Shown: in pieces, positions 7,558 through 27,542 of the stretch | How the letters are laid out: each line of letters begins with the position of its first letter | How positions within the stretch are numbered: position 1 is the first letter of the stretch | Assembly: GCA_020720365.1 (NCBI GenBank) | Contig: DYOU01000004.1 | Coordinates: forward strand, 1-42,848 | Source of the DNA: Candidatus Elulimicrobium sp. | GTDB taxonomy: Bacteria; Omnitrophota; Gorgyraeia; Zapsychrales; Fredricksoniimonadaceae | Reading direction: 5' to 3' | DNA length: 42,848 nt | Position numbers and translations under genes: made by a program | The notes under the pieces: generated by a model | What the model saw: the letters and a program-made list of their open reading frames with translations, nothing else | Databases searched by the model: none | Told to the model about the DNA's origin: nothing

Positions 7558-9657
7558 TCAATACAAGAATAACATCTCTGCGTACGTTGGCAGAGGCCAT
7601 AGATCCGACGGCACGATCCCTTCAAGCTCATCCGCGGCCGCGCGCGTCTGCAGCATAGCGGCTTTCATCTTGTCGGTGCAATGACAATCCAGCGCCGCTT
7701 CGATCGCTGCAATACCCGCCGCCAGGTCATCGGATAACTTGGTCACCTGGGACAAAAGCTTCTTGGCCGAAGCCGCCTTGGAACCAACACCTTCCACGGC
7801 CGTCACTGTTGCCGCCAAAGCCGCCTGATACTCCATTGCGGCCGGATAGATCTGCGTTGACGCGATCGTCCTGGCACATTCCGCTTCATAAGACAGAACG
7901 CTCTTGTAGTTATGCATATAGATCTCATAACGGGATAAGAGTTCTTTCTTTGAAAAAACAGAATGTTTTTCAAACAACTTGACCGTTGATTCATCCTCTA
8001 AAACCTGCAACGCTTCCGGCGTAGTCTTGAAATTCGGCAAGCCGCGGCGTTCTGCTTCCTTATGCCACTCTTCAGTATAATTATCGCCGTTAAAAAGAAC
8101 ACGCTTATGCTTCTTGATGATCGCCTGAAAGATCGCCTGAAGAGACTTGTTAAAATCCTTCTTCGCTCTCACATCAGCCTCAAGCTGTGTACACATAACA
8201 TCCAGCGCGTCGGCTACGATCGTATTCAGCGCCACATTCGCGCCCGAAGGGCTCATGTTAGAGCCAAGCGCGCGGAATTCAAATTTATTACCCGTGAACG
8301 CGAATGGTGAAGTGCGATTACGATCGGTAGCATCACGCGGCAATGTAGGAATAACGTCCACACCGATCTGAATCGTACCGCCGCTCTTCGCGGCCTTCGG
8401 TTCGCCCTTCTCTAACTGATCGATAATATCCGACAGCTGATCCCCAAGGAACACAGAAATGATCGCCGGAGGAGCTTCATTAGCCCCTAAACGATGATCA
8501 TTGCCAGGAGACGCTACCGTTGCGCGCAGCAGGGCCGCATTCTCATCAACCGCCTTGATGATCGCGCAAAGCGTGAAAAGGAACTTCGCATTCTCATGCG
8601 GATTAGAACCCGGATTCAACCAGTTTTTACCATCTGTACCAACAACGGACCAGTTATTATGTTTACCCGAGCCATTCACACCGGCGAACGGTTTTTCGTG
8701 CAACAAACAAGCCAGGCCATGCTTATCCGCGACCTGCTTCATAACATCCATACACATCATATTATGATCAACCGCCAGGTTCAACCGCTCAAAGATCGGT
8801 GCGAGCTCAAACTGTGCCGGAGCCACTTCATTATGACGCGTTTTCGCCGGCATCCCCAATTTCCAAAGTGTCTGGTCAAGCTCTTCCATGAACGCCAGGA
8901 TCCGCGGACGAATAGCACCAAAATAATGATCTTCCATCTGTTGATGGCGCGCCGGCTTACGGCCGAACAGGGTACGTCCTGTCTGAACAAGGTCCAAACG
9001 GGCATTATAAAATTCCTTGTCAATAAGGAAATATTCCTGCTCTGGCCCTAAAGTCACGTACGCCTTGGCGGCCGACTTCACACCGAATAACTTACCAGCA
9101 CGGCCCATCTGTTTGGCCAATGCGGCGATCGAACGAAGAAGGGGCGCTTTCTTATCAAGAGCCTCTCCGTGATAACCGCAGAAAATTGTCGGAATACACA
9201 AAGTTGCGCCTTCCTGGCCTTCTTTAATAAAAGCAGGACTGGTTGGATCCCAGGCCGTATAACCACGGGCTTCAAACGTAGCGCGTAAACCGCCAGAAGG
9301 AAAAGAAGAAGCATCCGGCTCACCCTGGATCAATTCTTTCGCAGAAAACTCCATCTTAACGCCGCCCTGGCCATCCGGAGAAATAAACGAATCATGCTTC
9401 TCGGCCGTAGTACCGGTCAAAGGCTGGAACCAATGGCAGAAATGCGTAGCGCCCTTGGAAACCGCCCAGGCCTTCATGGCTCCCGCCACTTCACCCGCGA
9501 TCGCCGGATCCAGCGCACCGCCTTCATTCATTGTCTTGCTCAAAGAGTCAAACGCCTTCTTTGAAAGCATCTTTTGCATAACATTCAGGCCGAACACATT
9601 CTCGCCGTACATGGCTTCGACTGCGCTGACCACCTTTTTGGTGTTCTTTGCTGCCAT
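7558..9657 (-). CDS. glnN: Glutamine synthetase type III
   Basis: GlnN condenses glutamate and ammonia with ATP to form glutamine. The 699-residue length and N-terminal extension (ENVFGLNVMQKMLSKKAF) mark the type III family rather than GSI (about 470 aa). Active-site motifs include LGPEQEYFLID near residue 205, TRHNEVAPAQFELAP near residue 265 and GVNGSGKHNNWS near residue 335, followed by the long helical GSIII C-terminal domain. The ORF track starts at TTG 9663; I prefer ATG 9657, which is 7 nt downstream of AGGAGG, since the TTG is only 1 nt from it. The gene has its own promoter and a long leader with a terminator that overlaps an ANTAR-type hairpin, and the next upstream gene encodes an ANTAR protein. 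GSIII lacks the adenylylation site of GSI, so RNA-level control is plausible. Confidence 0.97.
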   Translation of the reverse strand: MAAKNTKKVVSAVEAMYGENVFGLNVMQKMLSKKAFDSLSKTMNEGGALDPAIAGEVAGAMKAWAVSKGATHFCHWFQPLTGTTAEKHDSFISPDGQGGVKMEFSAKELIQGEPDASSFPSGGLRATFEARGYTAWDPTSPAFIKEGQEGATLCIPTIFCGYHGEALDKKAPLLRSIAALAKQMGRAGKLFGVKSAAKAYVTLGPEQEYFLIDKEFYNARLDLVQTGRTLFGRKPARHQQMEDHYFGAIRPRILAFMEELDQTLWKLGMPAKTRHNEVAPAQFELAPIFERLNLAVDHNMMCMDVMKQVADKHGLACLLHEKPFAGVNGSGKHNNWSVVGTDGKNWLNPGSNPHENAKFLFTLCAIIKAVDENAALLRATVASPGNDHRLGANEAPPAIISVFLGDQLSDIIDQLEKGEPKAAKSGGTIQIGVDVIPTLPRDATDRNRTSPFAFTGNKFEFRALGSNMSPSGANVALNTIVADALDVMCTQLEADVRAKKDFNKSLQAIFQAIIKKHKRVLFNGDNYTEEWHKEAERRGLPNFKTTPEALQVLEDESTVKLFEKHSVFSKKELLSRYEIYMHNYKSVLSYEAECARTIASTQIYPAAMEYQAALAATVTAVEGVGSKAASAKKLLSQVTKLSDDLAAGIAAIEAALDCHCTDKMKAAMLQTRAAADELEGIVPSDLWPLPTYAEMLFLY

Positions 9658-9699
9658 AATCAATCCTCCTGTTATTTAAATACTCCCCTGAGCCCCTCT

Positions 9700-9742
9700 A
9701 AAATCAAAAATCCTCTTCCGAAAAGACAATTTTCGAAAGAGG
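9700..9742 (-). terminator. Intrinsic terminator in the glnN leader (attenuator)
   Basis: On the minus strand the arms CCTCTTTCGAAAA and TTTTCGGAAGAGG form a 13-position stem with one wobble/mismatch around a TTGTC loop. ATTTTTGATTTT follows at once. It lies between the glnN promoter and its ribosome site, so it would stop transcripts before glnN. Its 5' arm is shared with the hexaloop hairpin just upstream, so the two folds exclude each other. Confidence 0.8.
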
Positions 9743-9759
9743 ACGTCAATGCCCTGCTT
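9736..9759 (-). promoter_or_regulatory. ANTAR-type hexaloop hairpin (antiterminator) in the glnN leader
   Basis: The RNA GGGC-AUUGAC-GUCC forms a stem closing a six-base loop. The loop has A at position 1 and G at position 4, the hallmark of ANTAR targets. The stem extends outward to nine positions with one C-C mismatch. Seven bases on its 3' side are also the 5' arm of the terminator, so binding here would block terminator folding. The second upstream hairpin of the usual two-hairpin motif is not obvious to me. Confidence 0.65.
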
Positions 9760-9796
9760 TGTTCATTTGCACGCTATCCCGCTTTTAATCCAACAA

Positions 9797-9824
9797 AGTA
9801 TATCCCTCAGCCAAAACTTGTCAA
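9797..9824 (-). promoter_or_regulatory. glnN promoter
   Basis: TTGACA and TATACT are separated by 16 bp on the minus strand, in the gap between the ANTAR gene and glnN. Transcription would start near 9790, giving a leader of about 130 nt that contains the hexaloop hairpin and the terminator. Confidence 0.65.
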
Positions 9825-9845
9825 CTATAAAAAATAGAGGGATTC

Positions 9846-11069
9846 TCAGGCTTTCTTCTGGAAATCTGCCATCAGCACGATCGATTCCGCAATTTCTTTC
9901 ATGGTCCGGCAGGAATCCATGCTCTTTTTATGGATCATTTTATAGGCCGCTTCCTCCGAAAGATCATTCATCTTCATCAAAATGCCTTTCGCCCGCTCGA
10001 CGATCTTGCGCGTTTCCAGCGCTTCTTTGGACTTTAATGCCTCTTCCATCAAACGGGTGTTCAATACCGCCGCCGCCGCCTGATTGGCCACTACCTGAAG
10101 GATCCCGACTTCATCGGAAGAAAATACATGCGGTTCTTTGGTATACACATTGATCACACCGATCGCCCGGTCTTTCACGACCATCGGGACCGCCACCATT
10201 GAACTTAACCCTTCTTTAACCGCCAGCTCACGATAAAAATACCGCGTTTCCTTACGCACATCCTCCACAATCAATGGACGCAGGGTTTTAACCACTTCAC
10301 CGATCAAACTGGAGTCCACCCTCAGGTTCGGTTTCTTTTTATATTCATCACTCAGGCTCTGCGTTGCCTTGATCGTCAATTCCAGGCCCTTCGCATCCAA
10401 CAGCATAACCGAACAGATCTTGGAATTCAGCATCTCCGCGGTCACAATAACGATCAGGCTCAGGATCTCCTCCAGATACTTTTCCGATATGATCGATCGG
10501 CTGACCTTGACCAGGCTGTCGAACTGCACAGCTTTTTGCCGGGTGTCACTGAATAAACGGGCATGTTCCACAACTCCACCCAATTGCCGCGCCGCCATCC
10601 CCAGAAGATCGACCACTTCCACAGGAAAATCAAAAGGTTTCTTATGCTGCAAATTAATAACGCCAACAGCTTTCCCTTTATATACGATCGGCACCGCAAG
10701 GAAAGCTTCATAATGATCTTCCGGCAGAACATCAAAAGCCTTAAAGCGCGGATCATTATAGGCATTCGCCTTGATCGCCAGCGGCTTGACATTCTTGGCA
10801 ACCCAGCCCGTCAACCCTTCACCGACCTTAAGCGCCACATTCCCCAATTCTTTCTTGTGAGGAGTCTTCGACGCGCGCAATACCAGGTTCTTGTTCGCCT
10901 CATCGAACAAATATACAAATACCGAATCCGCCGGCGCCATATCCAAAGCCACCTTAACGATCTCGCCCAACACACCTTCCAGATCCGTCTCGGAAGTTGT
11001 AATATCAACGATCCTGCGCAAGATAAGAAGTTCGTCCTCTGAAGAAAGGGCTTTTCTGACCTTCGCCAT
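9846..11069 (-). CDS. GAF-GAF-ANTAR transcription antiterminator
   Basis: A 407-residue soluble regulator with two GAF sensor domains (about residues 20-165 and 190-345) and a C-terminal ANTAR RNA-binding domain (about 350-405). The ANTAR part is recognised from ETRKIVERAKGILMKMNDLS, the spacing of its three helices and the pattern EEAAYKMIHKKSMD. It has no response-regulator receiver, so the signal is likely a small ligand or a redox cue at a GAF domain. ANTAR proteins bind paired hexaloop hairpins in nascent RNA and prevent termination, classically in nitrogen genes. The next gene is glnN, whose leader has such a loop overlapping a terminator. GGAG lies 6 nt before the ATG. The gene is 15 bp downstream of the peptidoglycan-binding lipoprotein gene and probably shares its promoter. 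Confidence 0.92.
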   Translation of the reverse strand: MAKVRKALSSEDELLILRRIVDITTSETDLEGVLGEIVKVALDMAPADSVFVYLFDEANKNLVLRASKTPHKKELGNVALKVGEGLTGWVAKNVKPLAIKANAYNDPRFKAFDVLPEDHYEAFLAVPIVYKGKAVGVINLQHKKPFDFPVEVVDLLGMAARQLGGVVEHARLFSDTRQKAVQFDSLVKVSRSIISEKYLEEILSLIVIVTAEMLNSKICSVMLLDAKGLELTIKATQSLSDEYKKKPNLRVDSSLIGEVVKTLRPLIVEDVRKETRYFYRELAVKEGLSSMVAVPMVVKDRAIGVINVYTKEPHVFSSDEVGILQVVANQAAAAVLNTRLMEEALKSKEALETRKIVERAKGILMKMNDLSEEAAYKMIHKKSMDSCRTMKEIAESIVLMADFQKKA

Positions 11070-13703: not shown

Positions 13704-13727
13704 AAAACCCTGCTTCTGAAGGGTTTT
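13704..13727. terminator. Bidirectional hairpin terminator downstream of the ROK gene
   Basis: AAAACCCT and AGGGTTTT form an 8-bp stem with an 8-base loop. T-runs follow on both strands (TTTTT on plus, TTTTCCTGATTTT on minus). It ends the leftward ROK transcript about 60 bp after its stop. Confidence 0.65.
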
Positions 13728-13783: not shown

Positions 13784-15106
13784 TTATATATGAAATAAGA
13801 TCGCACGACGATCTTGCGATATATTGTATTTCCGGACAGCATCTCTCATCGGAAGAACGCAAGGTAATATTTTCTTCTTGCGTAAATATTTCAACGCCAT
13901 CGCCGAGAATTCAGCTGATTTCTTATGACCGCAGGCAACGATCAGCACGTCCGGGCCTTTCTTGCAAATATCATCCAACTCATCATCCGTTAAATGTGAC
14001 GGGATCAGATCTCCTGGAACTTTAACCTTGCCATCCGCGCGAATATAGAACGCACCGCTCAGCACTTCACCTTTCACTCTCACCCTGCCCGCCGACACGA
14101 TCTGTACTTTGGGATAATACGAAAGATCTTTCAACTCTTTAAGATCGCATTGCTGACGGACCATCGCGACTGCCCCCAGCATAACCGCATCATCACCTAG
14201 TTTAGACGCGAGAACTTTGGGTGGATTCAACTTGGTAAAGAAAGGATCGTGCTGCAGCGCTTTCTCAATAACCGGTAAAATATAATCTCCGCACGCCTCG
14301 ATCACCCCGCCGCCAAAAATAAAGACCTCCGGATTAAAGATATGATTGAATGACACGCAGGCCGACGCCAATGCTTCTGCCGCCTTGCGGACGACCCGGG
14401 TAACTAACGGATCTTTGGCCTGCAGCGCTTTTTTTAACGCACCGCTTTTGATCTGTGACAGCCCCTTACCGGCAATATCCGCGATCAGGGACGCTTCACC
14501 ACCCTTTACGGCCGCGCGAATATCCCGCTCCATGGCCCAACGCCCCGCCAACGCCTCAAGACACCCGCTATTGCCGCAGGTGCATTTCGGCCCCTTGGGA
14601 TGCACTATTACATGTCCCAATTCCGCCGCCGCTCCCTGCGCGCCTTCCAGTAAGTGTCCGCCAACGATAATGCCGCCGCCCACACCCGTTCCGGGAAATA
14701 TTCCTACGATTGAATCTGCCCTGCGTCCGGCGCCAAGCCAGCGCTCACCCATTACACCAAAATTAACATCATTGCCAACAGCGGCGCGCATGCGGTATGT
14801 TTTGATCAGGATCTTCTTGAGCTCTGTACCGCTCAAGGAAATATTCGGCGTTATAACAACCCTTCCACTGCTATCCACAACGCCCGGAACAGCAACCCCA
14901 ATGCCCAACACACAGCTAACCGGCATCGCCGCTTCTTTTAAAAGCTCTTTAATCACCTTATGCAGAGCCGCAAGAATAGCGCCGGCCGTCGCCTTCGGGG
15001 GAGTAGCCGCTTTCAGCGAATGTACGATCTCACCACACGGGCGCACGAGCGCTCCGTATATCTTTGTTCCACCAATATCAATACCTATAAAGAATTTCTT
15101 ATCCAT
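13784..15106 (-). CDS. ROK-family sugar kinase fused to an Mth938-like domain
   Basis: A 440-residue protein. Residues 1 to about 320 are a complete ROK kinase: phosphate loop FIGIDIGGTKIYGAL, second ATP motif GIFPGTGVGGGI, and the ROK zinc motif CTCGNSGCLE. This part probably phosphorylates glucose or a related hexose, feeding or draining the glycogen pathway encoded upstream. Normal ROK kinases end near residue 320. Here a further 107 residues from about 334 resemble Mth938/DUF498: a short strand-rich start (AGRVRVKGEV), then GPDVLIVACGH, a helix, and MRDAVRKYNI with a final RRAILFHI. The function of that domain is not established. It lies 35 bp after the metallophosphoesterase-HD gene. No clear ribosome site precedes the ATG. 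Confidence 0.92.
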   Translation of the reverse strand: MDKKFFIGIDIGGTKIYGALVRPCGEIVHSLKAATPPKATAGAILAALHKVIKELLKEAAMPVSCVLGIGVAVPGVVDSSGRVVITPNISLSGTELKKILIKTYRMRAAVGNDVNFGVMGERWLGAGRRADSIVGIFPGTGVGGGIIVGGHLLEGAQGAAAELGHVIVHPKGPKCTCGNSGCLEALAGRWAMERDIRAAVKGGEASLIADIAGKGLSQIKSGALKKALQAKDPLVTRVVRKAAEALASACVSFNHIFNPEVFIFGGGVIEACGDYILPVIEKALQHDPFFTKLNPPKVLASKLGDDAVMLGAVAMVRQQCDLKELKDLSYYPKVQIVSAGRVRVKGEVLSGAFYIRADGKVKVPGDLIPSHLTDDELDDICKKGPDVLIVACGHKKSAEFSAMALKYLRKKKILPCVLPMRDAVRKYNISQDRRAILFHI

Positions 15107-15141: not shown

Positions 15142-16485
15142 TCATAAATTCTTTTTCTTGATAAGGATATCAGGGCCATAAATGAAGCGGAGAAGATCAC
15201 TTTTTTCTTGAGCAGTCTGGATCTCAACGAAACCCTTCACTCCTGGCTCAGGTCTAACCGAAAGCGTCATCCGGACACGGCTGATCACAGCGCTGACCTC
15301 CGCTACACGCGCGGTATGCGTACAATCCAGGCCATCGGCAATACGCAAAAGTCCGGCTAACAGGCTTACAAGTTCTTTCTCATAAGCCGTCAGATCTTTA
15401 TACCCCTTATGAGACCCTTCTGGCAATGACTTGCGGTGATACCGGGCGATCAACGCAACCATGCTGCGCTCCCGAAGATTCAATGGCAATGTACTGTCTT
15501 TCAGGATCAAATCCCTGGAGGCTTTATGATGGCCCTCTTGCCCATAGATCCAGCCGATATCATGCAATAAAGCCGCTGTACCCAGTAAAGCCCGTTCCCG
15601 CCAGCCCAATCCATAGAATTCAGCCAAATCATCGAACAATTGCAAGGCCAGCCGCGCAACCTGAACCGAATGCCCCATTTTGGACTGCAAACTCTTGGCT
15701 AACTCTATCGCTGCCGCTAAAAGGCCTTCAACAGATTCTCGCTTCAACCCGTCGATCTCTTCCAGGCTGCGCGCCTCGATCAAGGTGCTGATCAACCTCT
15801 CCGGAAAACCTTTGTCCCGCATTATTCCCACCGAAGCGTCCAAAGAATACTCCAGCCGATACCGCTCAACCGTGATCATTCCATTCTTGATCTCAATAAT
15901 ACAATAAGACGTCCTGGGGTCTCCATCAAATGAACGCCCGGCACCGCCAGGATTAATAAACCGGACTCCATCCACCGTCCGATCCACGTATTCATGCGTA
16001 TGCCCAAAGACAACGGTATGCGCCTTTCGGCGAACAGCATCGGCCGCCAGCGACCGGTACTTTTCCGCCGCAGACCGCGGCGTCAGGATATCATCGATCG
16101 CAAAGGATGAGCCGTGGACCAGCATAAGGCTCTGCCCAGCGATATCAACCTGATCGGTCTCAGGCAACTGCTGAATAAACACTTGATTCTCGACCGACAG
16201 CGTATTCAATGTCCATTCAAATGAAAATATCTTGTCTTTATCCTTGCCCGCCGCTTTCATCCGCTCCACATGATCTTGCGATGTGCATTTAATATCATAA
16301 TTACCTGCAATATGACGAGCACATACCTGGCGCAGGGAAGCGATCACTTCATTCGGAAAAGGGCCATAACCCACCATATCCCCTAAACTCCAGTATTCAT
16401 CAACTTTTTTTCGGGAAGCATCCGCAAGGATCGCCTGTAAGGCAGGAAAATTGGCATGAACATCGGCGATCAAGGCTACTCTCAT
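15142..16485 (-). CDS. Metallophosphoesterase fused to a Ppx/GppA-type HD domain
   Basis: A 447-residue two-domain protein. The N-terminal calcineurin-like phosphoesterase (about 1-240) has the metal-binding set LIADVHANF, GDMVGYG, GNYD, VHGSS and GHTHEYVD, close to YfcE/prokaryotic phosphodiesterases. From about residue 265 it carries an HD-type helical domain with ALLHDIGWIYGQEGHHKASRD and IARYHRKSLPEGSHKGY. The same pattern occurs in the C-terminal domain of the Ppx/GppA protein three genes upstream, with matching ARYHRR, SLLRMANALDHSHRQKV segments. It probably hydrolyses a nucleotide or phosphate polymer; the substrate is unknown. The ATG overlaps the CHAD gene stop by 4 bp (ATGA), which ties it to the polyphosphate operon. 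Confidence 0.88.
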   Translation of the reverse strand: MRVALIADVHANFPALQAILADASRKKVDEYWSLGDMVGYGPFPNEVIASLRQVCARHIAGNYDIKCTSQDHVERMKAAGKDKDKIFSFEWTLNTLSVENQVFIQQLPETDQVDIAGQSLMLVHGSSFAIDDILTPRSAAEKYRSLAADAVRRKAHTVVFGHTHEYVDRTVDGVRFINPGGAGRSFDGDPRTSYCIIEIKNGMITVERYRLEYSLDASVGIMRDKGFPERLISTLIEARSLEEIDGLKRESVEGLLAAAIELAKSLQSKMGHSVQVARLALQLFDDLAEFYGLGWRERALLGTAALLHDIGWIYGQEGHHKASRDLILKDSTLPLNLRERSMVALIARYHRKSLPEGSHKGYKDLTAYEKELVSLLAGLLRIADGLDCTHTARVAEVSAVISRVRMTLSVRPEPGVKGFVEIQTAQEKSDLLRFIYGPDILIKKKNL

Positions 16486-17363
16486 GACCGGTCGAGCGTA
16501 AAGAAACTTAACCGCGCCCAGGTTTTTTGTTTCTTGAGCTCGCTCCAGAGCTTCACAAAACGATCATGGGCATCAGCTCGACGGCGGGTACACTCATCAT
16601 TCAAGAAATTAACCGTCCTGCGGAATGACGCGTCACGCCCTGAGCTGTCTTTCAATATTCGAATAAGGCCGAGCCAAACATCAAAATTATGCATATCTCC
16701 CAAAGCACGCTGAACTTTCATCGCCGCAGCAATGAAAGATTTAACCTTCGAGCCATACAAGCATTCAAAATTCTCCAGTGTATAGCGCAAGTTCTTGGCC
16801 GCAATACGCATTTCATGAAGCTCTTTCACACAAGCCGGCTTACGCACATACGGCTCCAGGCTGAACATCTTCTCCAACCGTTCCAGGACATTGTTCTTCG
16901 CCCACTCATCCAGGGTAACCCCTGTTTCATTCAATGAAGGCTTAAGGCGGCGGATGGACTTGAAAACCTGATGCTGATGCAGCCGCGACAGATCCTTGCA
17001 GATCCGCGGCTGGATCTCTCCGCGATCTTCGCGAAGCTCATCAATGATCTCAAAGATCCCTTCCCTGAATTTCATGCCCTCAGGACTGGCGGCCAATTCT
17101 GTCAAAAAAGATATTTTTGTATCAATATCCCGTGCCTGGCCGAGAGATCTCAGGAGGCGTTTAATATTGGTTACAGCCGCCTGATATTCCCGCAGAGCCA
17201 CTGTTTCCTTATGGTCCGAAAGTGTGCTTTTCAGGCGGCGCAAGCTCACGCGCATCCGGTGCAAATGCTCAATATCCTTCGCTTTGCGGACGCCTTTCAC
17301 CTCAATCTCTACAGCCGCAATATATTTCTCCACCAGCCGGCTAAAAAAGATCTGTTCATTCAT
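16482..17363 (-). CDS. CHAD domain protein (polyphosphate-binding)
   Basis: A 293-residue protein made almost wholly of a CHAD domain, the conserved-histidine alpha-helical fold that binds inorganic polyphosphate. The diagnostic positions are the basic/histidine helices IEHLHRMRVSLRRLKSTL near residue 35 and KELHEMRIAAKNLRYTLENF near 185, which line a positively charged channel. There is no catalytic domain. The track begins at TTG 17381; I chose ATG 17363, which has AAGGG 7-8 nt upstream. The gene follows ppk1 closely and overlaps the metallophosphoesterase-HD gene by 4 bp. The likely role is as a polyphosphate granule or adaptor protein. Confidence 0.92.
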   Translation of the reverse strand: MNEQIFFSRLVEKYIAAVEIEVKGVRKAKDIEHLHRMRVSLRRLKSTLSDHKETVALREYQAAVTNIKRLLRSLGQARDIDTKISFLTELAASPEGMKFREGIFEIIDELREDRGEIQPRICKDLSRLHQHQVFKSIRRLKPSLNETGVTLDEWAKNNVLERLEKMFSLEPYVRKPACVKELHEMRIAAKNLRYTLENFECLYGSKVKSFIAAAMKVQRALGDMHNFDVWLGLIRILKDSSGRDASFRRTVNFLNDECTRRRADAHDRFVKLWSELKKQKTWARLSFFTLDRS

Positions 17364-17377
17364 GAAGTTACCCTTAT

Positions 17378-19408
17378 TCAAGTATATTTCTTAATAAAAA
17401 ATTCCTGTGCATTAAAAACATCCTCATCCGCTTTAATGAACGAATACGTCCGCTGCGGCAATAATACCCTCGACCGCTGATTATCCCGCCAGGTATTCTC
17501 CAGGACAGACCGCAGCTGCTCTTTCAGTTCACCTCGATGAATCTCGAATAAAAGCTCGATCCGACGGTCAAGATTACGGCTCATCCAGTCGGCTGATGAT
17601 AAAAAAACCCTGTATTCAGAATTGTTATTGAACAGAAAGATCCGGCTATGCTCCAGAAAACGGCCGACAATACTTTTAACCGTAATGTTCTCGCTCAAAC
17701 CGGGAACCCCCGGTATCAGAACACAAATACCGCGCACGATCAAATTGATCTTGACCCCCTCACGTGAAGCCTCATACAACTTGTCGATCATCCGGACATC
17801 TTCCAGTGAATTCATTTTAGCGAACACAAAACCATTCTTGTATTTCCGCTGAAACTCGATCTCCTTGTCGATCATCTCAAAAAAGTACTCCCGCAGGTCG
17901 TACGGCGAGGAAATAACCCTTTTCCAACGTGCCGGCTGGGAATACCCTGAAATAACATTGAAGACATCCGATATATCACGGGCAAAATCATCATTCGCGG
18001 TAAAATAGCCGATATCGGTATATACCCGCGCTGTTTTCTCGTTATAATTTCCCGTCGATAAATGCACATACCTGCGCGTACGATTCTCCTCCTTGCGCAC
18101 GATCAAGGCGATCTTGGAATGGATCTTCATGCCGGCAATGCCATAAATCACATAACAGCCCGCTTCCTCCAACTGCCGCACCCAGCCAATATTGCGCTCT
18201 TCGTCAAAACGCGCCTTGATCTCCACCAGCACCGTCACTTGCTTCTTGTTCTTAGCCGCCGCTTTCAACGCCGAAATGATCTCCGAATCTTCGCTCGCCC
18301 GGTAGAGGGTCATCTTGATCGCCAATACATCCGGATCAACGGATGCCGACGCGATCAGATCTACGGTCGGCTGAAAAGACTGGTACGGCATATGCAGAAT
18401 AAAATCTTCTTCCTTGATCCGTTCAAAGATATTATCGTACTTCATTTTTGCCGGAATATACATTGGGAAAGACAGCGCCGTTCCACCGGCCTGTTCGACC
18501 AGTTTAAACAGAAAAGTCAGGTCAATCTCGCCTTCAATGCACGTCACTTCATCCTTGAAGAAGCCCGCCGCGTCCATCACGGCATCCAGAAGCGGTTCAG
18601 GGCAGGATTTCTCCATAGTCAACTGAACAACTTTGGCGCGCGGGCGTTTCTTGATCTCTTCTTCAATGGATAAAAGAAGATTAGGCGAAAATTCTTCATC
18701 AACCGAAAGCTCGCTATCCCTGATCAAACGGAACAGTGACGCGCCGGTAATCTCATAACCGCGAAAGAAACTCTTCAAATTATCCCGAATGATCTCGTCG
18801 ATCAGGATAAATTCAAACGCATCCTTGGCCGAAGGTAATTTAACCAGCCGGGGAATGCTCAAGGGTACCGGGATCACCGCCAGATGCGTGAGCTCCTTAC
18901 GGGTCAAATGCACGGCGAACGCCAGCGTCTTGGACGCCAACACAGGAAAAGGATGCCCCTGATCGATCGCCATTGGCGTAATGATCGGATACAGCGTTGA
19001 ATCAAAGAAGCGTTTAAGAAATTTTTGCTGATCGGAATTAAGGTCATTCACATGCCTGATAAAAATGTTTCTCGCGGCCAGGCCCGGTTTCAGCTGGTCT
19101 TCGTACAGGGTATAAAGCTTTTCAAACAGCCTTGACGCCTTGTCCCTGACCTGACGAAAAACGTCCTGAGGATAATATCCATAAATATCTTCACGATTAT
19201 ATTGCGCGTCCAGAAGCCTTTTCAACCCGGCGACACGGACCATAAAGAACTCATCCATATTGCTGGCAAAAATAGCCAGGAACCTTGCTCGTTCCAGGAG
19301 CGGATTCTCCGCTTCAGCCGCCTCTTCCAGGACACGCTCATTGAATAAAAGCCAACTTAAGTCTCTGTGAATAAAACGGTCTTTTTCATTCAATGCAGCT
19401 TCCGGCAT
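17378..19408 (-). CDS. ppk: Polyphosphate kinase 1
   Basis: PPK1 reversibly polymerises the gamma-phosphate of ATP into polyphosphate. At 676 residues it is full length. The domain order is the N-terminal domain (KDRFIHRDLSWLLFNERVLEEA), the head domain and two phospholipase D-like catalytic domains. The autophosphorylated histidine lies in YVHLSTGNYNEKTARVYTDI near residue 435. The second catalytic His is in FLEHSRIFLFNN near residue 590, and SSADWMSRNLDRRIELLFE follows. Nine bases separate it from the upstream ppx gene and the CHAD gene follows, so synthesis, binding and breakdown of polyphosphate are encoded together. AAGGA lies close to the ATG. Confidence 0.97.
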   Translation of the reverse strand: MPEAALNEKDRFIHRDLSWLLFNERVLEEAAEAENPLLERARFLAIFASNMDEFFMVRVAGLKRLLDAQYNREDIYGYYPQDVFRQVRDKASRLFEKLYTLYEDQLKPGLAARNIFIRHVNDLNSDQQKFLKRFFDSTLYPIITPMAIDQGHPFPVLASKTLAFAVHLTRKELTHLAVIPVPLSIPRLVKLPSAKDAFEFILIDEIIRDNLKSFFRGYEITGASLFRLIRDSELSVDEEFSPNLLLSIEEEIKKRPRAKVVQLTMEKSCPEPLLDAVMDAAGFFKDEVTCIEGEIDLTFLFKLVEQAGGTALSFPMYIPAKMKYDNIFERIKEEDFILHMPYQSFQPTVDLIASASVDPDVLAIKMTLYRASEDSEIISALKAAAKNKKQVTVLVEIKARFDEERNIGWVRQLEEAGCYVIYGIAGMKIHSKIALIVRKEENRTRRYVHLSTGNYNEKTARVYTDIGYFTANDDFARDISDVFNVISGYSQPARWKRVISSPYDLREYFFEMIDKEIEFQRKYKNGFVFAKMNSLEDVRMIDKLYEASREGVKINLIVRGICVLIPGVPGLSENITVKSIVGRFLEHSRIFLFNNNSEYRVFLSSADWMSRNLDRRIELLFEIHRGELKEQLRSVLENTWRDNQRSRVLLPQRTYSFIKADEDVFNAQEFFIKKYT

Positions 19409-19417
19409 AGATCCTTT

Positions 19418-20950
19418 TTAAAAATTCTCATTAATAACCAGGCGAATACGGCTGCCCGTGATCCGCTCAAACAACTCTTTTTTTTCAAGAAAATCATTCT
19501 TTTCCAACAGAAAATTCGCCTTGCAATCCACCTGTAAAGCAATATTATCCGTATCCCCGTGCAGGATCTTGACCGCCTTCACTTTTTGCCGATGTGAATG
19601 ATCCAGCGCATTAGCCATTCGCAGCAACGATGCCAGTTTCTGTACCGCGATCTGCCGGTCTTCCGACAGGCTGCTGTAAACCAGATGCGACTTTTGAGGA
19701 TCTCCCCGGCGGTGATAACGGGCGACACACGCGATCGTTTTGATCTCTTCGTCTGTCAGACGAAATAAATTCAATGAACTGATAATATATTCCGAATGTT
19801 TATGGTGCGACCGGTTGGAAATAAACTTTCCAATATCATGCAGATACGCCGCCAATGTTAAATATAAAAGATCCCGTTCTTCCAGCCCAAGCTGTTCAGC
19901 CAAGCCTTCATACAAGGTTTTAACCAGCTGCGCCACATGCTTGGAATGCTCAATATTCACATTATATTGTTCACAAATAGAATGCGCGACGGATACCAGC
20001 TGATTTGATTTATTATACCTTTTCGACAATTCAAGCCCCAGCACCTTGTTCGCCAAAACAGCCTCTGCCAGCGACGTTTCAAGAATATACACATGAGGAA
20101 TACCGGTCATCTTGAAGAACATTTTGAGGACGATCATGTACGGCAGGAGGGCATCTGCCGTTTCCAATGTCATATCATAATCATGCGCGATCTCTTCATT
20201 GGTCTTCAATATTAACTCTGCCACAATCTTCTCAACTTCACTAACGCTGAACTGAAAGAAATTAGTGGACACCTTCTTGCTCGGCAGGATCGCTTTCAAC
20301 AATTCCTGATTCTCATCGATCAGGAATATGTCATCCACATGCAGCCGCGGCAGGCGTGTTTTAAGATAAATAAACTCATTTTCAATATATTCCTCAACCG
20401 ACTCCACCAGCTCTTCCTTGGTGCCGTCGATCTCGCTGATCAGCTGCTTGAACCTCAATGCCCCGAGCGCAAGCCCGGTATTCATCAGCGTAAAACCCTT
20501 TTTCAACAAGGAAATGTCCAGGCTGCCGGCGCCCATCTCGGCGATCAGCAGGTTTTTGTTATGTACCGGATAGGTACCTTTGAGTTTATGCGAAATATAC
20601 GCATCAATATAATAAACAACGTCGCCCACGCTCAAGACTTCGATCTCGAACCCGGTCTTGCGCCAGACCGTATCCACAAAAATATTCCGGTTATTTGCTT
20701 CACGTACCGCGGTGGTCGCGATCACAAAGACCTGTGAAATATTATATTCCCTGAGGATCTTCCTGTATTTCTCAAGGGTATTGATCGTATGATTGATCAA
20801 TTCCTGGGAAATATTCCCCTTCAGGAAGGTGGCACGGCCAAGAGGGACCACATTCTTAAGTGATTCGAGGATCATAATATCCCCGTCGGAAGTTTCCCCT
20901 ACTAAAAGCTTGATCGTATTGGATCCTATATCAATAACGCCTGCCGCCAT
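19418..20950 (-). CDS. ppx: Ppx/GppA exopolyphosphatase/pppGpp phosphohydrolase with HD domain
   Basis: A 510-residue phosphatase of the Ppx/GppA family, which removes terminal phosphates from polyphosphate or converts pppGpp to ppGpp. The actin-like ASKHA core (about 1-305) opens with GVIDIGSNTIKLLVGE and has the second phosphate motif AEMGAGSLDISLL, in place of the usual GGGS-type sequence. The C-terminal HD domain carries AAYLHDIGKF and SHHKHSEYIISSL, then CVARYHRRGDPQKSH. Context next to ppk1 favours the exopolyphosphatase role, but ppGpp control of polyphosphate cannot be excluded. It starts 20 bp after the GH57 gene and is probably co-transcribed with it. Confidence 0.93.
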   Translation of the reverse strand: MAAGVIDIGSNTIKLLVGETSDGDIMILESLKNVVPLGRATFLKGNISQELINHTINTLEKYRKILREYNISQVFVIATTAVREANNRNIFVDTVWRKTGFEIEVLSVGDVVYYIDAYISHKLKGTYPVHNKNLLIAEMGAGSLDISLLKKGFTLMNTGLALGALRFKQLISEIDGTKEELVESVEEYIENEFIYLKTRLPRLHVDDIFLIDENQELLKAILPSKKVSTNFFQFSVSEVEKIVAELILKTNEEIAHDYDMTLETADALLPYMIVLKMFFKMTGIPHVYILETSLAEAVLANKVLGLELSKRYNKSNQLVSVAHSICEQYNVNIEHSKHVAQLVKTLYEGLAEQLGLEERDLLYLTLAAYLHDIGKFISNRSHHKHSEYIISSLNLFRLTDEEIKTIACVARYHRRGDPQKSHLVYSSLSEDRQIAVQKLASLLRMANALDHSHRQKVKAVKILHGDTDNIALQVDCKANFLLEKNDFLEKKELFERITGSRIRLVINENF

Positions 20951-20970: not shown

Positions 20971-23397
20971 TTAATACTCACGGATCTTGAGCAATTCACC
21001 CAAAGACTGAAACTGCTTGACCCATCTGTCCGCACCCGGAGAAGTCGCCGCTTGAGCTTTCTTCACTCTGCCGCTGGACTGACTGATCGCATAATAAATA
21101 TTCTGAGCTTTCCAGAAATCCAGATCGAACTTCAGGCCTGTCAAGACGCGCACCACCTCTGTGATCTTCTCCAGAAGAGCCATATCCTCAGGCGACCGAG
21201 CAAACTGCACCATCATCTCATTGACTTTATGCCCACCCACAAAATCCAGTTGTTCCTTGCCGCGCTTGAAAGACCAACGCTGAACTTCCAGCGCCATCCG
21301 TTGCAATGTTTCAACAGGAATATCCGGCATTTCCAGCACGCGGGTCATGTCCCGGTTAACAACAAATTCCACCACCCCCGACAAGGTTTTAGGCAGCGGC
21401 ATGTGATTTTCATTGATCATCCGGATCAGCGAATAATGGTCATCGTAAATCCGGCGGAACGACGTTTCTACCTCACGCATGGTCGATTCGAAAATGCTCT
21501 CAAAGATCGTCTGCTGTTCATGCTTGAACAAATGCCATAATGAGAAATTCTTGGTTCCGAAATACCGGTTGATCACCTGAATGGCCCGCGGAATATCTCC
21601 CTCGGAGAATACCTGCATGGCATCCTGGCGCATCTTATTAAAGAAAGCTTCATCCTTAAAGTATTCCACGCCCGTAATAAAACTGTGATCTCCCAGATGC
21701 AAGACCATAAACTGGACCTCAAAACTTGTCCAGGTGATCTGCGAAACGATCTGGGCACGGCCGGTCACCATCGCCAGCTTGCCGATCGTCTGACGGTCAT
21801 AGGCTTTTCGAATAACAGTAAAACAATACAATTGAGCTTCTCTCGGATAATCCTGATACAGCGAACTCATCGCATAATGCGCGCCGACACGCAAAATGTC
21901 AACGATCGAAGGCTCAACACGGAGCTTGTAAATACGCGCGCCATTATTCGCTTCTGGCACATTGCTATGCGCTTTTCCCAATATCTCGATAAATCCCAAC
22001 TCCAGGTCTTGCTCACAGATCCGCTGTACCAGCTGAATGACCCTGGCGGCATATTTTATGATCTGCACTGTTTCGATCCCTGAAATATCATCAAAGAACC
22101 AGCCGCAGCTGGTATACATCAACTGTGCGTTCCGCTGAATCTCCAGGCACCGTAAAATATGGTTCTTCTGCTTTTCTTCAAGGCCGGGACGAATATATTC
22201 CGTCAAAAACCGCTCCACATTCGGCCGCGACCTGTCCAGTACAACCTGAATATACAGATCCCTCAGCTTCCAGGGATCATCCGTAAAAAGTTTCATTTCC
22301 TGCTCATAAGAAACCGCCACACGGTCCCGCAGCCAATCCAGAGCCTCTCTTAAAGGCTTGCGCCACTGTTGCTGCCATCCGGGTTTTCCTCCGGAATTAC
22401 ACCCGCAGTCACTGCGCCAGCGTTCGATCCCATGCACACAACTCCAGGAACTCCCCTCCACGATCTCCACCTCATACTCCGGCGGATTACCTTCCAGGTA
22501 TTCCCCATAGACCGTTACTGTTGCGCGCTTGTTCTTTTCAATATAGTGCAAGGCATACGCTAAGGCCATATCCCCGAATTTATGATGATGGCCGTAGGAC
22601 TCTCCGTCGGTTGCAATATGAACAAGCTGATTTTTACTGCTCTTGAGATCAAGCGCGCCCAGGATACGATTGGCAAAAGCTTCGCCGCTGTGCAACACGC
22701 CTTCAAACGCCACTGACTGCGAGATCGGGCCGTCGTAAAAAAATAATGCGATCGTCCGCCCTGAAGGTAAATGGCAAAGATACGGCCGGCGCAGGTCTAT
22801 CGCCACGCTATCCCCTTCATTCCACGTCCGTCGATCAGAAAGCTTTCTTACCCGTTTAGCCTGATGCGGCGCGAGCACGGTAAATTTGATCCCGTTCTCA
22901 GCCAGAATATCCAGGCTTTCCAGGTCAACCGCTGTTTCGGCAAGCCACATCCCTTCTGGCGCCCGCTTGAACCGCGACTCAAAATCACGGATCCCCCAGA
23001 TAATCTGCGTACGCTTATCCCGCATATTGGCCAACGGCATGATCATGTGGTTATACACCTGTGCCATGGCTGAACCATGCCCCGAAAAATGGGCACAGCT
23101 CAAACGATCTGCTTCCAGCACCGATTGATACGCATCTGGATCTTTCTTCTCCATCCAGGAAAGAAGCGTCGCGCCCATATTAAAGCTGATCTTGGAATAC
23201 GTATTAATGATATCTACAATATACCCCTGTGCATCCAGAATGCGCGAAGCGCCATTACGGGCATAACACTCGGCGGAGATCCGTTCATTCCAATCATGAT
23301 AAGGATGTGCGGATTCCTGCAGCTCGACCTCTTCAAGCCACGGATTTTCCCGCGGAGGCTGATAAAAATGACCGTGAATACAAACAAATTTATTCAT
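20971..23397 (-). CDS. Glycoside hydrolase family 57 with DUF3536 domain
   Basis: An 808-residue GH57 enzyme with a C-terminal DUF3536 region. It opens with CIHGHFYQPPRENPWLE, where the His-rich loop is typical. The nucleophile glutamate is probably in EGMWLAETAVD near residue 155, and the acid/base aspartate in HIATDGESYGHHHKFGDMAL near residue 265. GH57 enzymes cleave or transfer alpha-1,4/1,6-glucans; the DUF3536 type is an unassigned group often next to glycogen genes. It has no signal peptide, so it is cytoplasmic and likely trims or reshapes glycogen. Its ATG overlaps the upstream DUF4139 stop by one base (TAATG) with GAGGG upstream. Confidence 0.92.
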   Translation of the reverse strand: MNKFVCIHGHFYQPPRENPWLEEVELQESAHPYHDWNERISAECYARNGASRILDAQGYIVDIINTYSKISFNMGATLLSWMEKKDPDAYQSVLEADRLSCAHFSGHGSAMAQVYNHMIMPLANMRDKRTQIIWGIRDFESRFKRAPEGMWLAETAVDLESLDILAENGIKFTVLAPHQAKRVRKLSDRRTWNEGDSVAIDLRRPYLCHLPSGRTIALFFYDGPISQSVAFEGVLHSGEAFANRILGALDLKSSKNQLVHIATDGESYGHHHKFGDMALAYALHYIEKNKRATVTVYGEYLEGNPPEYEVEIVEGSSWSCVHGIERWRSDCGCNSGGKPGWQQQWRKPLREALDWLRDRVAVSYEQEMKLFTDDPWKLRDLYIQVVLDRSRPNVERFLTEYIRPGLEEKQKNHILRCLEIQRNAQLMYTSCGWFFDDISGIETVQIIKYAARVIQLVQRICEQDLELGFIEILGKAHSNVPEANNGARIYKLRVEPSIVDILRVGAHYAMSSLYQDYPREAQLYCFTVIRKAYDRQTIGKLAMVTGRAQIVSQITWTSFEVQFMVLHLGDHSFITGVEYFKDEAFFNKMRQDAMQVFSEGDIPRAIQVINRYFGTKNFSLWHLFKHEQQTIFESIFESTMREVETSFRRIYDDHYSLIRMINENHMPLPKTLSGVVEFVVNRDMTRVLEMPDIPVETLQRMALEVQRWSFKRGKEQLDFVGGHKVNEMMVQFARSPEDMALLEKITEVVRVLTGLKFDLDFWKAQNIYYAISQSSGRVKKAQAATSPGADRWVKQFQSLGELLKIREY

Positions 23398-25082
23398 TAT
23401 AATCCCTCAATATTCATCTCTCTCGGATACTCGACTACATAGGAAAGCGTTAGTTCCTTCTTTTCCTTCGGCTGCACCTGTAATGTCCACAAATATACCC
23501 CTTCACGATCTTGATACATTTCCGTATCCGGCTTTAAGCTGGGCATCACTTTAACCACCCGGATCTTGTCATCCTGCGCTACCGGGATCTGGTCGAAAAC
23601 TTTCACTGTAACGGCCTTGGACTTAAAGCTCTCTACCGTGATTTTATAAGTATACGTGATTTTCTTCGTTGGTGACGGAATATTCCCGATAAGGGTATCA
23701 TCGCTCTTTTGTTCGATCAACTCCCGTTTTACGCCAACCCCTTCATCCACCCCCAGATAAAGATCAAACGGAGCCCCTGGCGGGATCGTTTTAATAATAT
23801 CGGAATTCCCTACATAAGTGCCATCAAGAAAAACATTGACCCGGCCCGCCATTAACTGCTCTTCAGGGCTATTTGTCACTAATGATCTCAAATACGCATA
23901 CGTAGACAATTTGGGAGTCGCCGCATACTGCAACGAGGCATCCAGCGTCTGCACATTCAGCGGTACACGCACTTCGCTGCCGTCAGACTTGACCGTAACC
24001 GGCCGTGCCGCCTTATACGTCAATGAAACACCCGACGCATCAGCCTTGGCATAAGCTATCTCAGCCGCCTGCGGAGCCGCCGCCATCATTGATGCAGATT
24101 TATCCGAATCCATCAAAGCGTCGGAAACTACTTCCAAATTCGCTGATTTTGATCTCCGGCCTCCGTCGGCTCTCATTATAGACTGAACCTGTCGTGGCCT
24201 CAAATACCATTGGTTCAGTTCAGGCATACGCCCGCCAACCGACGGCATGGAAGTCGACAATGTCAACTGGACATCCTGCCAATCCTCTCCTGTTGTTTGA
24301 CGCACAACCGCAAAAGCGCTCAGGTTCACCTTGACTTTATCAAACTCAACCCGCGCATCATACACCGGATACCAGCCAACCGCATTCAACGTATAAGCAA
24401 CTTCGATCATAAGGTCTCCCGCCCGCTCACACTCGAGTTCCACCGACAAGATCCTCTGCTCATTCCGCGAAGACGCCATTAACTGCCCCAACTCCTGCTG
24501 CAAGGCTTGACGCTCAAGATTCTTTTCTCTTTGCTCTATCCCTACCGTCAACTGACCCTCTTCCAGGCTTTTTGTGCCCTCTTCCAGGAAAGCCATCGTC
24601 GCCTTCAATTCATCTGCTGTTGGTACTTTTGTCGCCAGATCTTTCGGCAGCTGCCCCGCAGTAAAAAGCCGGACCGAATTCAGAAAAGCCCGCTTCTCCG
24701 CAAATACTGCTGTCTCCGCTTTCAGTACAGCCAGCGCATCATCCACAGCCTGGATCTTTATCTGAAGCTCACGTACGCGCTCATCCGACGGGCGGGTCAG
24801 GAACTCTTTTTTGATCCCGGCCCCCAGGATCTTCACCTGAGCCGTCCCCTTGGCAGAAACAGAAAGAGAATTCTCATCAAAAAGTGCCTGGACACCCTTA
24901 AGCCGAACCGTTTGCAATCCCGGCTTCAGCTCAACTTTAGCCGTACGCGTCACACGTGCTGAAGAAGGATACACAATAGCCTGGCTGATAGCTGAATCCG
25001 CCTCCTGCACATCCGCCTGAACAGCTCCCGCTAACACAGACACTAAAAAGCCAACGATCAATCCTGCCTGTTTCCGCCGCAT
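23397..25082 (-). CDS. DUF4139 family envelope protein (DUF4140 plus DUF4139)
   Basis: A 561-residue secreted or periplasmic protein. A signal peptide (FLVSVLAGAVQA) precedes a DUF4140 N-terminal beta domain starting at ISQAIVYPSSARVTRTAKV. A helical coiled-coil stretch (about 100-195) follows, then the large DUF4139 domain from about 215 with YTLNAVGWYPVYDARV and a C-terminal WTLQVQPKEKKELTLSY. The family, which includes mucoidy inhibitor-like proteins, has no agreed biochemical function. GAAAGGA lies before the ATG. It follows the glgB terminator and is translationally coupled to GH57 by a one-base overlap, so it probably heads the GH57-ppx-ppk-CHAD transcription unit. Its presence there is unexplained. 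Confidence 0.85.
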   Translation of the reverse strand: MRRKQAGLIVGFLVSVLAGAVQADVQEADSAISQAIVYPSSARVTRTAKVELKPGLQTVRLKGVQALFDENSLSVSAKGTAQVKILGAGIKKEFLTRPSDERVRELQIKIQAVDDALAVLKAETAVFAEKRAFLNSVRLFTAGQLPKDLATKVPTADELKATMAFLEEGTKSLEEGQLTVGIEQREKNLERQALQQELGQLMASSRNEQRILSVELECERAGDLMIEVAYTLNAVGWYPVYDARVEFDKVKVNLSAFAVVRQTTGEDWQDVQLTLSTSMPSVGGRMPELNQWYLRPRQVQSIMRADGGRRSKSANLEVVSDALMDSDKSASMMAAAPQAAEIAYAKADASGVSLTYKAARPVTVKSDGSEVRVPLNVQTLDASLQYAATPKLSTYAYLRSLVTNSPEEQLMAGRVNVFLDGTYVGNSDIIKTIPPGAPFDLYLGVDEGVGVKRELIEQKSDDTLIGNIPSPTKKITYTYKITVESFKSKAVTVKVFDQIPVAQDDKIRVVKVMPSLKPDTEMYQDREGVYLWTLQVQPKEKKELTLSYVVEYPREMNIEGL

Positions 25083-25120
25083 AAAATATCCTTTCCATTA
25101 AACTTTTCTGAAAATACTCC

Positions 25121-25183
25121 GCAAAAATTTGGGCTGAAGAGCTGGCCGCAGGGTACCTAACCCAATACGACCGCCTTCAGCCC
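25121..25183 (-). terminator. Long hairpin terminator after glgB
   Basis: GGGCTGAAG and CTTCAGCCC form a 9-bp perfect stem closing about 35 nt, which has its own GGGT/ACCC hairpin. AAATTTTTGC follows on the minus strand. It would end the glgP-glgB transcript before the DUF4139 gene. The branched interior is larger than usual for a plain terminator. Confidence 0.65.
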
Positions 25184-25195
25184 TTAACCTGTTGC

Positions 25196-27154
25196 TTATT
25201 TCTCTCTTTTAAAATATACCACGCTCAATGGAGGCAGCGTCATTAACAGCGAATGTTCACGGCCATGCGCGGACATAGGCTCCGACATGACTCCGCCCGC
25301 ATTCCCTTTATTGGAACCCCAGTACATTTCTCCATCAGAATTAAGGATCTCCCTCCAATACCCCGGACGCGGTACGCCCACGCGGTACTTTTCACGCAAC
25401 ACGGGCGTTAAATTACAACAGACCAGGATCGTATCATCCGGATCATATCCCTTGCGCAGAAAGAACAGCGTACCGCCTTCCCAATCGCCGCAATCGATCC
25501 ATTCAAACCCTGTATAATTAAAATCATCCTGATACAGCGCAGGCTCACGACGATATATCGCATTCAGGTCTTTCATCCACTTCTGAACCCCCCTGTGCGG
25601 CGGCCATTCCAGCAAATGCCAATCTATGCTCGTCTCATAATTCCACTCGTCCCACTGCCCCATCTCTCCGCCCATAAAGTGCAATTTCTTGCCGGGCTGG
25701 CCGAACATATACCCGAACAGCAGGCGCAGGTTCGCAAACTTCTGCCAGTCATCACCGGGCATTTTGCGCAATAAGGCGCCTTTACCATGAACCACCTCAT
25801 CATGAGATAAAGACATCATGAAATTCTCTGTAAAAGCATATAAGAGACCAAACGTCAACTGATCATGATGATGCTTGCGATAAACCGGATCCTTCGAGAA
25901 ATAAACCAGCGTATCGTGCATCCAGCCCATATTCCATTTCATCCCGAAGCCAAGCCCGCCGTCAAATACCGGTTTCGATACTTTGGTCCAGGCCGTAGAC
26001 TCTTCCGCGATCATTAGCGCATCCGGATGAGCCCGGTACACTGCCGTATTCAACGTTGTGATAAAATCAATCGCTTCCAGATTTTCCCGTCCGCCATAAC
26101 AATTCGGGATCCACTCGCCTTCTTCACGGGAATAGTCCAGGTACAACATGGACGCAACGCCATCAACACGCAGGCCATCCACATGGTATTTATCCATCCA
26201 GAACAAGGCGCTGGAAATTAGATAATTACGCACCTCCATGCGGCCGTAATTAAAGATCGAACTCTTCCAATCCGGATGGAACCCTTTACGGGGATCCTCA
26301 TGTTCATATAACGCCGTACCGTCAAATTGATACAACCCATGGCCATCATTCGGAAAATGCGATGGCACCCAATCCAGAAAAACCCCGATATCATTCTGAT
26401 GCATACGATCGATCAAAAACATCAGATCCTGCGGGCCTCCAAAGAAAGACGCCGGCGCAAAAAAACCGATCGTCTGATAACCCCAGGACCCCTGAAAAGG
26501 ATGTGCCAGGACCGGCATAAATTCTACATGAGTATAGCCCATTTCTTTTACATAATTAACCAGCTTGTCGGCCATCTCAACATAAGACAGTGAACGATTT
26601 CCTTCTTCACAAACGCGCATCCAGGAACCCAGGTGTACTTCATACACCGAGATCGGCTTATTTAACGCATTATTTTCTTTACGCCTGGACATCCACGCAT
26701 GATCATTCCACCCATAGGAAATATCCCATACAAGCGATGCGGATTTTGGCGGCACTTCCGAATGGAACCCTAGCGGATCTGACTTCTCAAGCTCCCAACC
26801 CTGCTGTGTACGGATATAATATTTGTACGACTGGCCATGGCCAATATGCCCTACAAAACCTTCCCAGACCCCCGATCCATCCTGACGGCAAGTCAACGGC
26901 GTTGCCATCCGATTCCAGCCGTTGCAATCAGCGATCAAAGAAACATACTCGGCATTCGGTGCCCATACCGCGAACCAAACCCCTTTAACTCCGTTGCGCT
27001 CAACAAGATGCGCTCCCATTTTGTCATACAGATTGAAATGATTCCCTTCACGGATCAAATGCAGATCAAAATCAGAAAAATAACAATTATTCGTCGATAT
27101 TTTACCAAGGTCCTGCGGAATATGAGTCATTGCTTTCGTATTATCTTTGCGCAC
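25196..27154 (-). CDS. glgB: 1,4-alpha-glucan branching enzyme
   Basis: GlgB cuts alpha-1,4 glucan chains and reattaches them by alpha-1,6 bonds to branch glycogen. At 652 residues it is a GH13_9 enzyme with one N-terminal CBM48 (VWFAVWAPNAEYVSLIADCNGW), then the barrel. Catalytic residues are the Asp in GLRVDGVASMLYLDYSR near residue 335, the Glu in MIAEESTAW near 390, and the Asp in SLSHDEVVHGKGAL near 455. A C-terminal beta domain ends the chain. The start is GTG, set by GGAGGGAG 5 nt upstream. It lies 42 bp downstream of the DUF2934 gene and follows glgP in the same unit. Confidence 0.96.
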   Translation of the reverse strand: MRKDNTKAMTHIPQDLGKISTNNCYFSDFDLHLIREGNHFNLYDKMGAHLVERNGVKGVWFAVWAPNAEYVSLIADCNGWNRMATPLTCRQDGSGVWEGFVGHIGHGQSYKYYIRTQQGWELEKSDPLGFHSEVPPKSASLVWDISYGWNDHAWMSRRKENNALNKPISVYEVHLGSWMRVCEEGNRSLSYVEMADKLVNYVKEMGYTHVEFMPVLAHPFQGSWGYQTIGFFAPASFFGGPQDLMFLIDRMHQNDIGVFLDWVPSHFPNDGHGLYQFDGTALYEHEDPRKGFHPDWKSSIFNYGRMEVRNYLISSALFWMDKYHVDGLRVDGVASMLYLDYSREEGEWIPNCYGGRENLEAIDFITTLNTAVYRAHPDALMIAEESTAWTKVSKPVFDGGLGFGMKWNMGWMHDTLVYFSKDPVYRKHHHDQLTFGLLYAFTENFMMSLSHDEVVHGKGALLRKMPGDDWQKFANLRLLFGYMFGQPGKKLHFMGGEMGQWDEWNYETSIDWHLLEWPPHRGVQKWMKDLNAIYRREPALYQDDFNYTGFEWIDCGDWEGGTLFFLRKGYDPDDTILVCCNLTPVLREKYRVGVPRPGYWREILNSDGEMYWGSNKGNAGGVMSEPMSAHGREHSLLMTLPPLSVVYFKREK

Positions 27155-27196
27155 GCTTACTCCCTCCGGATATTTATATCGACAAGAACCGATCGG

Positions 27197-27490: not shown

Positions 27491-27542
27491 AATCACGTCC
27501 TTTGTTGTTTTATCCCGTCTTAATAAATAACGGGTTAGTATT

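Follow-up and report, generated by a model that had tools for sequence, protein, structure and literature searches.

ROK sugar kinases fused to a basic Mth938-type domain recur beside polyphosphate genes in several phyla

Results

A ROK–DUF498 gene lies at the end of a polyphosphate gene cluster

The window, meaning the whole 42,848-nucleotide stretch of Candidatus Elulimicrobium DNA that was analyzed, carries a co-directional cluster on its reverse strand in the order GH57, ppx, ppk1, CHAD, phosphoesterase-HD, and ROK-DUF498, with gaps of 20, 9, −4, −4, and 35 bp between successive genes. The ROK-DUF498 fusion is thus the last gene of this ppx-ppk-CHAD cluster.

20971..23397 (−), GH57-DUF3536 glucan enzyme, upstream in the co-directional cluster (Pfam; 20-bp gap to ppx)
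19418..20950 (−), exopolyphosphatase Ppx/GppA with an HD domain (Pfam)
17378..19408 (−), polyphosphate kinase PPK1 (four PPK1 Pfam domains)
16482..17381 (−), CHAD protein of the polyphosphate-binding type (PF05235, E 1.2e-37; 4-bp overlaps with its neighbors)
15142..16485 (−), metallophosphoesterase plus HD protein, 35 bp upstream of the fusion (Pfam; neighbor conserved in relatives)
13784..15106 (−), ROK-DUF498 fusion gene, 440 residues, ATG start (open reading frame, translation, and Pfam; recurs in relatives)
13704..13727 (−), terminator-like hairpin with an 8-bp stem after the ROK-DUF498 stop codon (consensus scan only)

Judged from its sequence, the hairpin likely marks the end of the operon. 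Upstream of the polyphosphate genes, the interval 20971-29981 (−) holds glycogen genes, encoding the GH57-DUF3536 enzyme, a DUF4139/DUF4140 protein, a GH13 branching-type enzyme, and glycogen phosphorylase. The phosphoesterase gene at 15142-16485 (−) is an unusual fusion too, joining a calcineurin-like phosphoesterase to an HD region that resembles domain III of Ppx-GppA, and in some relatives only one half of it matches (the phosphoesterase in L102; the HD region in L089, L108, and L147). Elsewhere in the window, at 7558-11069 (−), a gene for a two-GAF ANTAR protein (9846-11069) lies directly upstream of one for a 701-residue protein (7558-9663), a putative type III glutamine synthetase by its appearance; this pairing suggests antitermination control of nitrogen assimilation.

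The kinase core is complete and resembles ROK glucokinases

The window protein consists of a ROK kinase domain, a short linker, and a C-terminal DUF498/Mth938 domain.

14153..15088 (−), ROK kinase domain, residues 7-318 (PF00480, E 6.4e-59)
14768..14770 (−), predicted catalytic Asp113, in GNDVN (alignment A3; nearly invariant across the family)
14555..14584 (−), zinc motif CTCGNSGCLE, residues 175-184 (sequence; conserved in alignment A1)
14102..14152 (−), short linker, residues 319-335, with a conserved YP at 331-332 (invariant columns of A1)
13814..14101 (−), DUF498/Mth938 domain, residues 336-431 by family match (PF04430 and fold match)

An earlier note on this DNA had described the kinase core as complete, and the PF00480 match indeed spans the full domain, with near-invariant phosphate-binding glycine motifs and catalytic Asp. 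Asp113 is presumably the catalytic residue, by analogy with ROK kinases in general. The CxCGxxGCxE zinc motif used to recognize ROK kinases is also present. Against the Streptomyces griseus ROK glucokinase 3vgk, the kinase domain gives a TM score of 0.90 (by target length). The source genome encodes a second ROK protein, which is single-domain and 30% identical to the window protein.

The zinc motif is lost in the fused kinases of families f4 and f5 (L057, L058, L060, L061, L065, and L066), as in TSAGLSGTLE, while the flanking His and Glu residues are retained. These proteins may have a metal-free core or an altered choice of donor or sugar.

AlphaFold2 modeling of the full protein with 38 aligned sequences gave a mean pLDDT of 92.8 and a pTM of 0.91, so the two domains and their relative placement are modeled with confidence. 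The best fold matches of the full-length model are the ROK glucokinases 2qm1 and 3vgk. Because the 50 matches listed for this search comprised ROK proteins only, the C-terminal tail was modeled separately.

The C-terminal tail adopts the Mth938 fold

The separate tail model has a pLDDT of 94.1, and its top nine PDB matches in Foldseek are eight Mth938/DUF498-type proteins, all at a probability of 1.00 (2ab1, as two chains, and 1ihn, 2gm2, 2cyj, 3cpk, 2fi9, 2fvt, and 2k2e). The fold extends beyond residue 431 to the C terminus. PF04430 scores 37.2 bits in the full protein, above the Pfam cut-off of 33, and 40.7 bits (E 2.6e-10) on the tail alone, though some relatives score under the cut-off. 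The resemblance to Mth938/DUF498 that the earlier note had proposed is therefore borne out by both profile and structure, including the profile search of the tail that it had called for and the structural match whose absence it had named as grounds for rejection. At the sequence level, a fused planctomycete relative matches PH1505 at 5e-16 and MTH938 at 5e-14, including the C-terminal HVTC.

Members of this family had been characterized in the same note as small stand-alone proteins, and stand-alone examples of 112-127 residues were found. The window protein departs from this usual form in being fused in frame to a ROK kinase, a feature on which the Pfam family definition does not bear. Its DUF498 domain is the only one in the source genome.

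The fusion recurs in several phyla

A survey of the fusion's spread, also suggested earlier, recovered ~37 fused relatives in Omnitrophota (several families), Planctomycetes, Auribacterota, and one further phylum. A set of 55 relatives included fused orthologues from many genera of the window's family and from another family; other genera carry a 45-53% identical orthologue that ends before the DUF498 domain. A domain match was present in 36 of 384 genomes of the phylum, 26 of them as fusions and 10 as stand-alone proteins or short frames. Scanning genome_contigs yielded 20 loci, whose titles name Omnitrophota, Auribacterota, Pirellulales, Planctomycetota, and Elusimicrobia; such titles can mislead, as the contig titled "Elusimicrobia" (L083) is identical to one from the window's own family. 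In genome-centered searches, the genome sets of L085 and L087 differ from the window's phylum set. The fusion is present in 9 of 298 genomes of the class of the Pirellulales locus, and in the phylum set of L085 the remaining DUF498 matches are all short or stand-alone, the usual type. No split form, with a stand-alone DUF498 gene adjoining a separate ROK gene, was found in the 1.5-kb flanks of stand-alone loci.

The window comes from a fragmented metagenome-assembled genome of 198 contigs, which might favor an assembly artifact or a chance read-through having joined two genes. However, the same two domains are joined in frame, through the same linker region, in ~37 genomes of several phyla. 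The fusion is therefore not an assembly accident, and we treat an artifact, a vanishingly improbable reading, as ruled out.

Two loci show signs of rearrangement. In one genome (L133/L135, G719:C211), a stand-alone DUF498 gene is split into two frames and an intact copy lies elsewhere; the broken gene is possibly a decaying duplicate. At L082 7290-8339, the G006 kinase gene is missing the first 104 residues and runs up against a GH57 gene that is missing its end, as if the junction were the product of a deletion or misassembly.

Polyphosphate genes adjoin fused and unfused kinase genes

In Omnitrophota and Auribacterota, the fused gene adjoins ppx-ppk1-CHAD-phosphoesterase/HD in either orientation. 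The neighbors seen in the window recur next to the fusion in further genera and families, where the kinase gene may be co-directional or convergent, and adjacency to ppk1 persists after inversion of the kinase gene and is present in the Auribacterota locus L089. Among the 31 fused loci with useful flanks, ppk1, usually with ppx, lies within ~8 kb in 20 and a PPK2 gene lies beside or near the kinase in 3, giving 23 with PPK1 or PPK2 nearby; the chance expectation is ~0.8% per locus. In the remaining 8 (L087, L088, L105, L139-L141, L143, and L146), half of them planctomycete, no close polyphosphate gene was found; at L143, a PPK2 gene lies ~7 kb from the fused gene.

Since PPK2 is non-homologous to PPK1, its association with the fusion constitutes separate evidence. 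At L085, a tandem PPK2 (E 4e-149) is one gene from the kinase, with a ppk1-CHAD cluster ~11 kb further, and in planctomycetes a PPK2 relative directly adjoins the fused gene at two loci, L136 and L138. Strong PPK1 matches occur in 22 of 26 fusion genomes versus 38 of 358 others (Fisher p 4e-16, which ignores kinship). These neighborhood and genome tallies are all observational and come from related genomes, and their p-values take no account of that relatedness.

Unfused orthologues also adjoin ppk1, in 12 of 12 loci examined, with gaps that are often 5-45 bp and sometimes place the kinase gene 5-8 bp after ppk1. Thus, the DUF498 domain is not required for the ppk1 association.

CHAD genes track the DUF498 domain

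Adjacent CHAD genes were seen in 19 of 21 fused cassettes versus 0 of 12 unfused ones, and genome-wide CHAD is present in 13 of 15 fused versus 3 of 17 unfused. The fused cassettes L109 and L110 lack an adjacent CHAD gene, and none was found near the planctomycete fusions. On the kinase tree, in which the deep forks lack resolution, the domain label needs only two changes (at least two). With so few independent changes and with shared ancestry as a confounder, the phylogenetically clustered tracking of CHAD with the DUF498 domain is suggestive and not proof.

This co-occurrence could mean that the partner bound by the C-terminal domain is the CHAD protein and not polyphosphate, so that the kinase is recruited to CHAD-coated granules. 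We regard this as very improbable, given the clustered nature of the correlation and the fusions that have no CHAD gene close by, in L109, L110, and the planctomycetes. Moreover, CHAD itself is basic (+17), and two basic partners are more likely to be bridged by the polymer.

The fused domain has gained basic residues

The fused Mth938 domains carry a net charge of +12.0 +/- 5.1 (n=37), compared with +0.1 +/- 1.8 (n=8) for stand-alone members and with −1 and 0 for the solved homologues PH1505 and MTH938. The kinase cores of the fusions are no more basic than paralogous ROKs, so the basic enrichment belongs to the tail. Basicity of the whole protein was dropped as evidence because paralogous ROK cores are equally basic (+13.7) and only the tail is unusual. 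As these genomes encode generally basic ROKs, lineage composition may explain part of the tail charge. The basic residues of the window's tail fall in three groups.

14021..14041 (−), fusion-specific basic motif RADGKVK, residues 356-362 (alignment A4)
13958..13963 (−), K382-K383, a basic pair specific to the fusions (all fused rows have a basic residue at 382, and 89% have one at 383)
13805..13810 (−), R433 and R434 (R433 common to stand-alone members; R434 fusion-specific, basic in all fused rows)

In A4, the fusion-specific basic positions are 356, 360, 362, 382, 383, and 434. Its 18 fused rows all have a basic residue at R356 and at K362, and 94% have one at K360, where the stand-alone rows have L/F, V, and S/P; positions 382 and 383 are likewise non-basic in the stand-alone rows.

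These residues bear on the proposal that the Mth938 domain serves as an appendage for structure or regulation, in dimerization or small-metabolite sensing, with no polyphosphate role and merely a shared storage operon. No biochemical function is known to have been established for Mth938-type proteins, the unfused orthologues sit in the same ppk neighborhood, and several planctomycete fusions lack that neighborhood, all of which would fit an appendage. The fusion-specific gain of ~12 net positive charges, the near-invariant Lys/Arg positions, the PPK2 neighbors in separate lineages, and the tracking with CHAD argue against it, and we consider it unlikely.

The phosphate donor

The kinase core is closest to the ATP-type glucokinases (6e-39 against 2qm1 and 1e-36 against 3vgk) and far from the polyphosphate-using 1woq (1.7e-10). 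It scores 182 bits against the glucokinase model TIGR00744 (trusted cut-off 260) and 54.7 bits against the polyphosphate-glucose phosphotransferase model NF045942 (cut-off 250). Polyphosphate glucokinases of methanotrophs are reported to lack the CxCGxxGCxE zinc motif (PMC6406325). Membership in the known polyphosphate glucokinase family was ruled out by the NF045942 score, the distance from 1woq, and the presence of the zinc motif.

A non-ATP donor, raised speculatively in the earlier note from the neighboring genes, is conceivable. The hint of a polyphosphate link has gained from the neighborhood conserved across phyla, the non-homologous PPK2 in some lineages, and the basic domain, but the donor itself has so far found no such backing. 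On one such reading, the protein would be a direct polyphosphate glucokinase, in which glucose receives its phosphate from polyphosphate and the Mth938 domain is a track leading the polymer into a ROK core whose polyphosphate use evolved separately from that of the known enzymes. The conserved ppk/ppx/PPK2 neighborhood, the fusion-specific basic residues, and the ROK membership of known polyphosphate glucokinases (1woq) are consistent with this reading. However, the ATP-type core and the retained zinc motif, together with the low NF045942 score, make it improbable, and direct polyphosphate use is accordingly a rival and not our main reading.

Discussion

A possible polyphosphate-tethered hexokinase

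We see an even chance that the fusion is a ROK-family hexokinase physically tied to polyphosphate through its basic Mth938 domain. The predicted sugar is most likely glucose. The basic domain would bind polyphosphate chains or granules, in a manner modeled on the conserved Lys/Arg patches through which CHAD domains bind polyphosphate (PMC6537752). Neighboring glucan enzymes would free glucose from glycogen, and this glucose would be phosphorylated at the polyphosphate store, most likely from ATP that PPK1/PPK2 would regenerate on site out of polyphosphate. On the glycogen side, the glycogen phosphorylase and branching-type enzyme encoded upstream, and the GH57 enzyme too, are in keeping with this tethered-hexokinase reading.

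Somewhat more tentatively, the fused proteins may form an undescribed class of polyphosphate-coupled hexokinases in several phyla, in which a repurposed Mth938 domain acts as a polyphosphate-binding module; glucose phosphorylation linked to polyphosphate may then have a second route, one through enzymes with the zinc motif. Each half belongs to a known family, but neither their fusion nor its occurrence in several phyla, its setting among polyphosphate genes, or its basic signature was described in the titles and abstracts listed from the open-access literature.

Mth938/DUF498 proteins occur in bacteria, archaea, and humans (AAMDC, 2ab1), and their biochemical function is unsettled. A sugar-kinase fusion that recurs in polyphosphate clusters provides a concrete hypothesis for them, namely polyanion binding. 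If true, it would be the first biochemical role for this long-unexplained family and a new way to attach a metabolic enzyme to polyphosphate, and it would link the glycogen and polyphosphate reserves of uncultured phyla at one enzyme.

Comparison with known systems

The window protein shares with ROK glucokinases (2qm1 from Enterococcus faecalis, 3vgk, and TIGR00744) the core, the catalytic Asp, ExGH, and CxCGxxGCxE, at 30-33% identity, but differs in its C-terminal Mth938 domain, its polyphosphate-cassette setting, and its sub-cut-off TIGR00744 score. With the polyphosphate/ATP glucomannokinase and polyphosphate glucokinases (1woq and NF045942) it has in common the ROK superfamily fold and the link to polyphosphate; those enzymes, however, are shorter (the 1woq chain has 267 residues), lack an Mth938 domain, and are distant in sequence, and the methanotroph enzymes lack the zinc motif that the window protein has (PMC6406325). 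The CHAD proteins of ppk operons (PMC6537752) provide a parallel as basic accessory modules encoded alongside polyphosphate enzymes, although their fold is unrelated to Mth938 and CHAD is here a separate neighboring gene. Finally, the fold is shared with the Mth938/DUF498 proteins (MTH938 1ihn, PH1505 2cyj, human AAMDC 2ab1, and XCC1710 2gm2), whose signature of GTSH, YN, and a C-terminal HVTC is kept in the fused planctomycete members, while the window member has lost the C-terminal HxTC. The known Mth938 proteins are single-domain and near neutral, whereas the window's version is fused and strongly basic.
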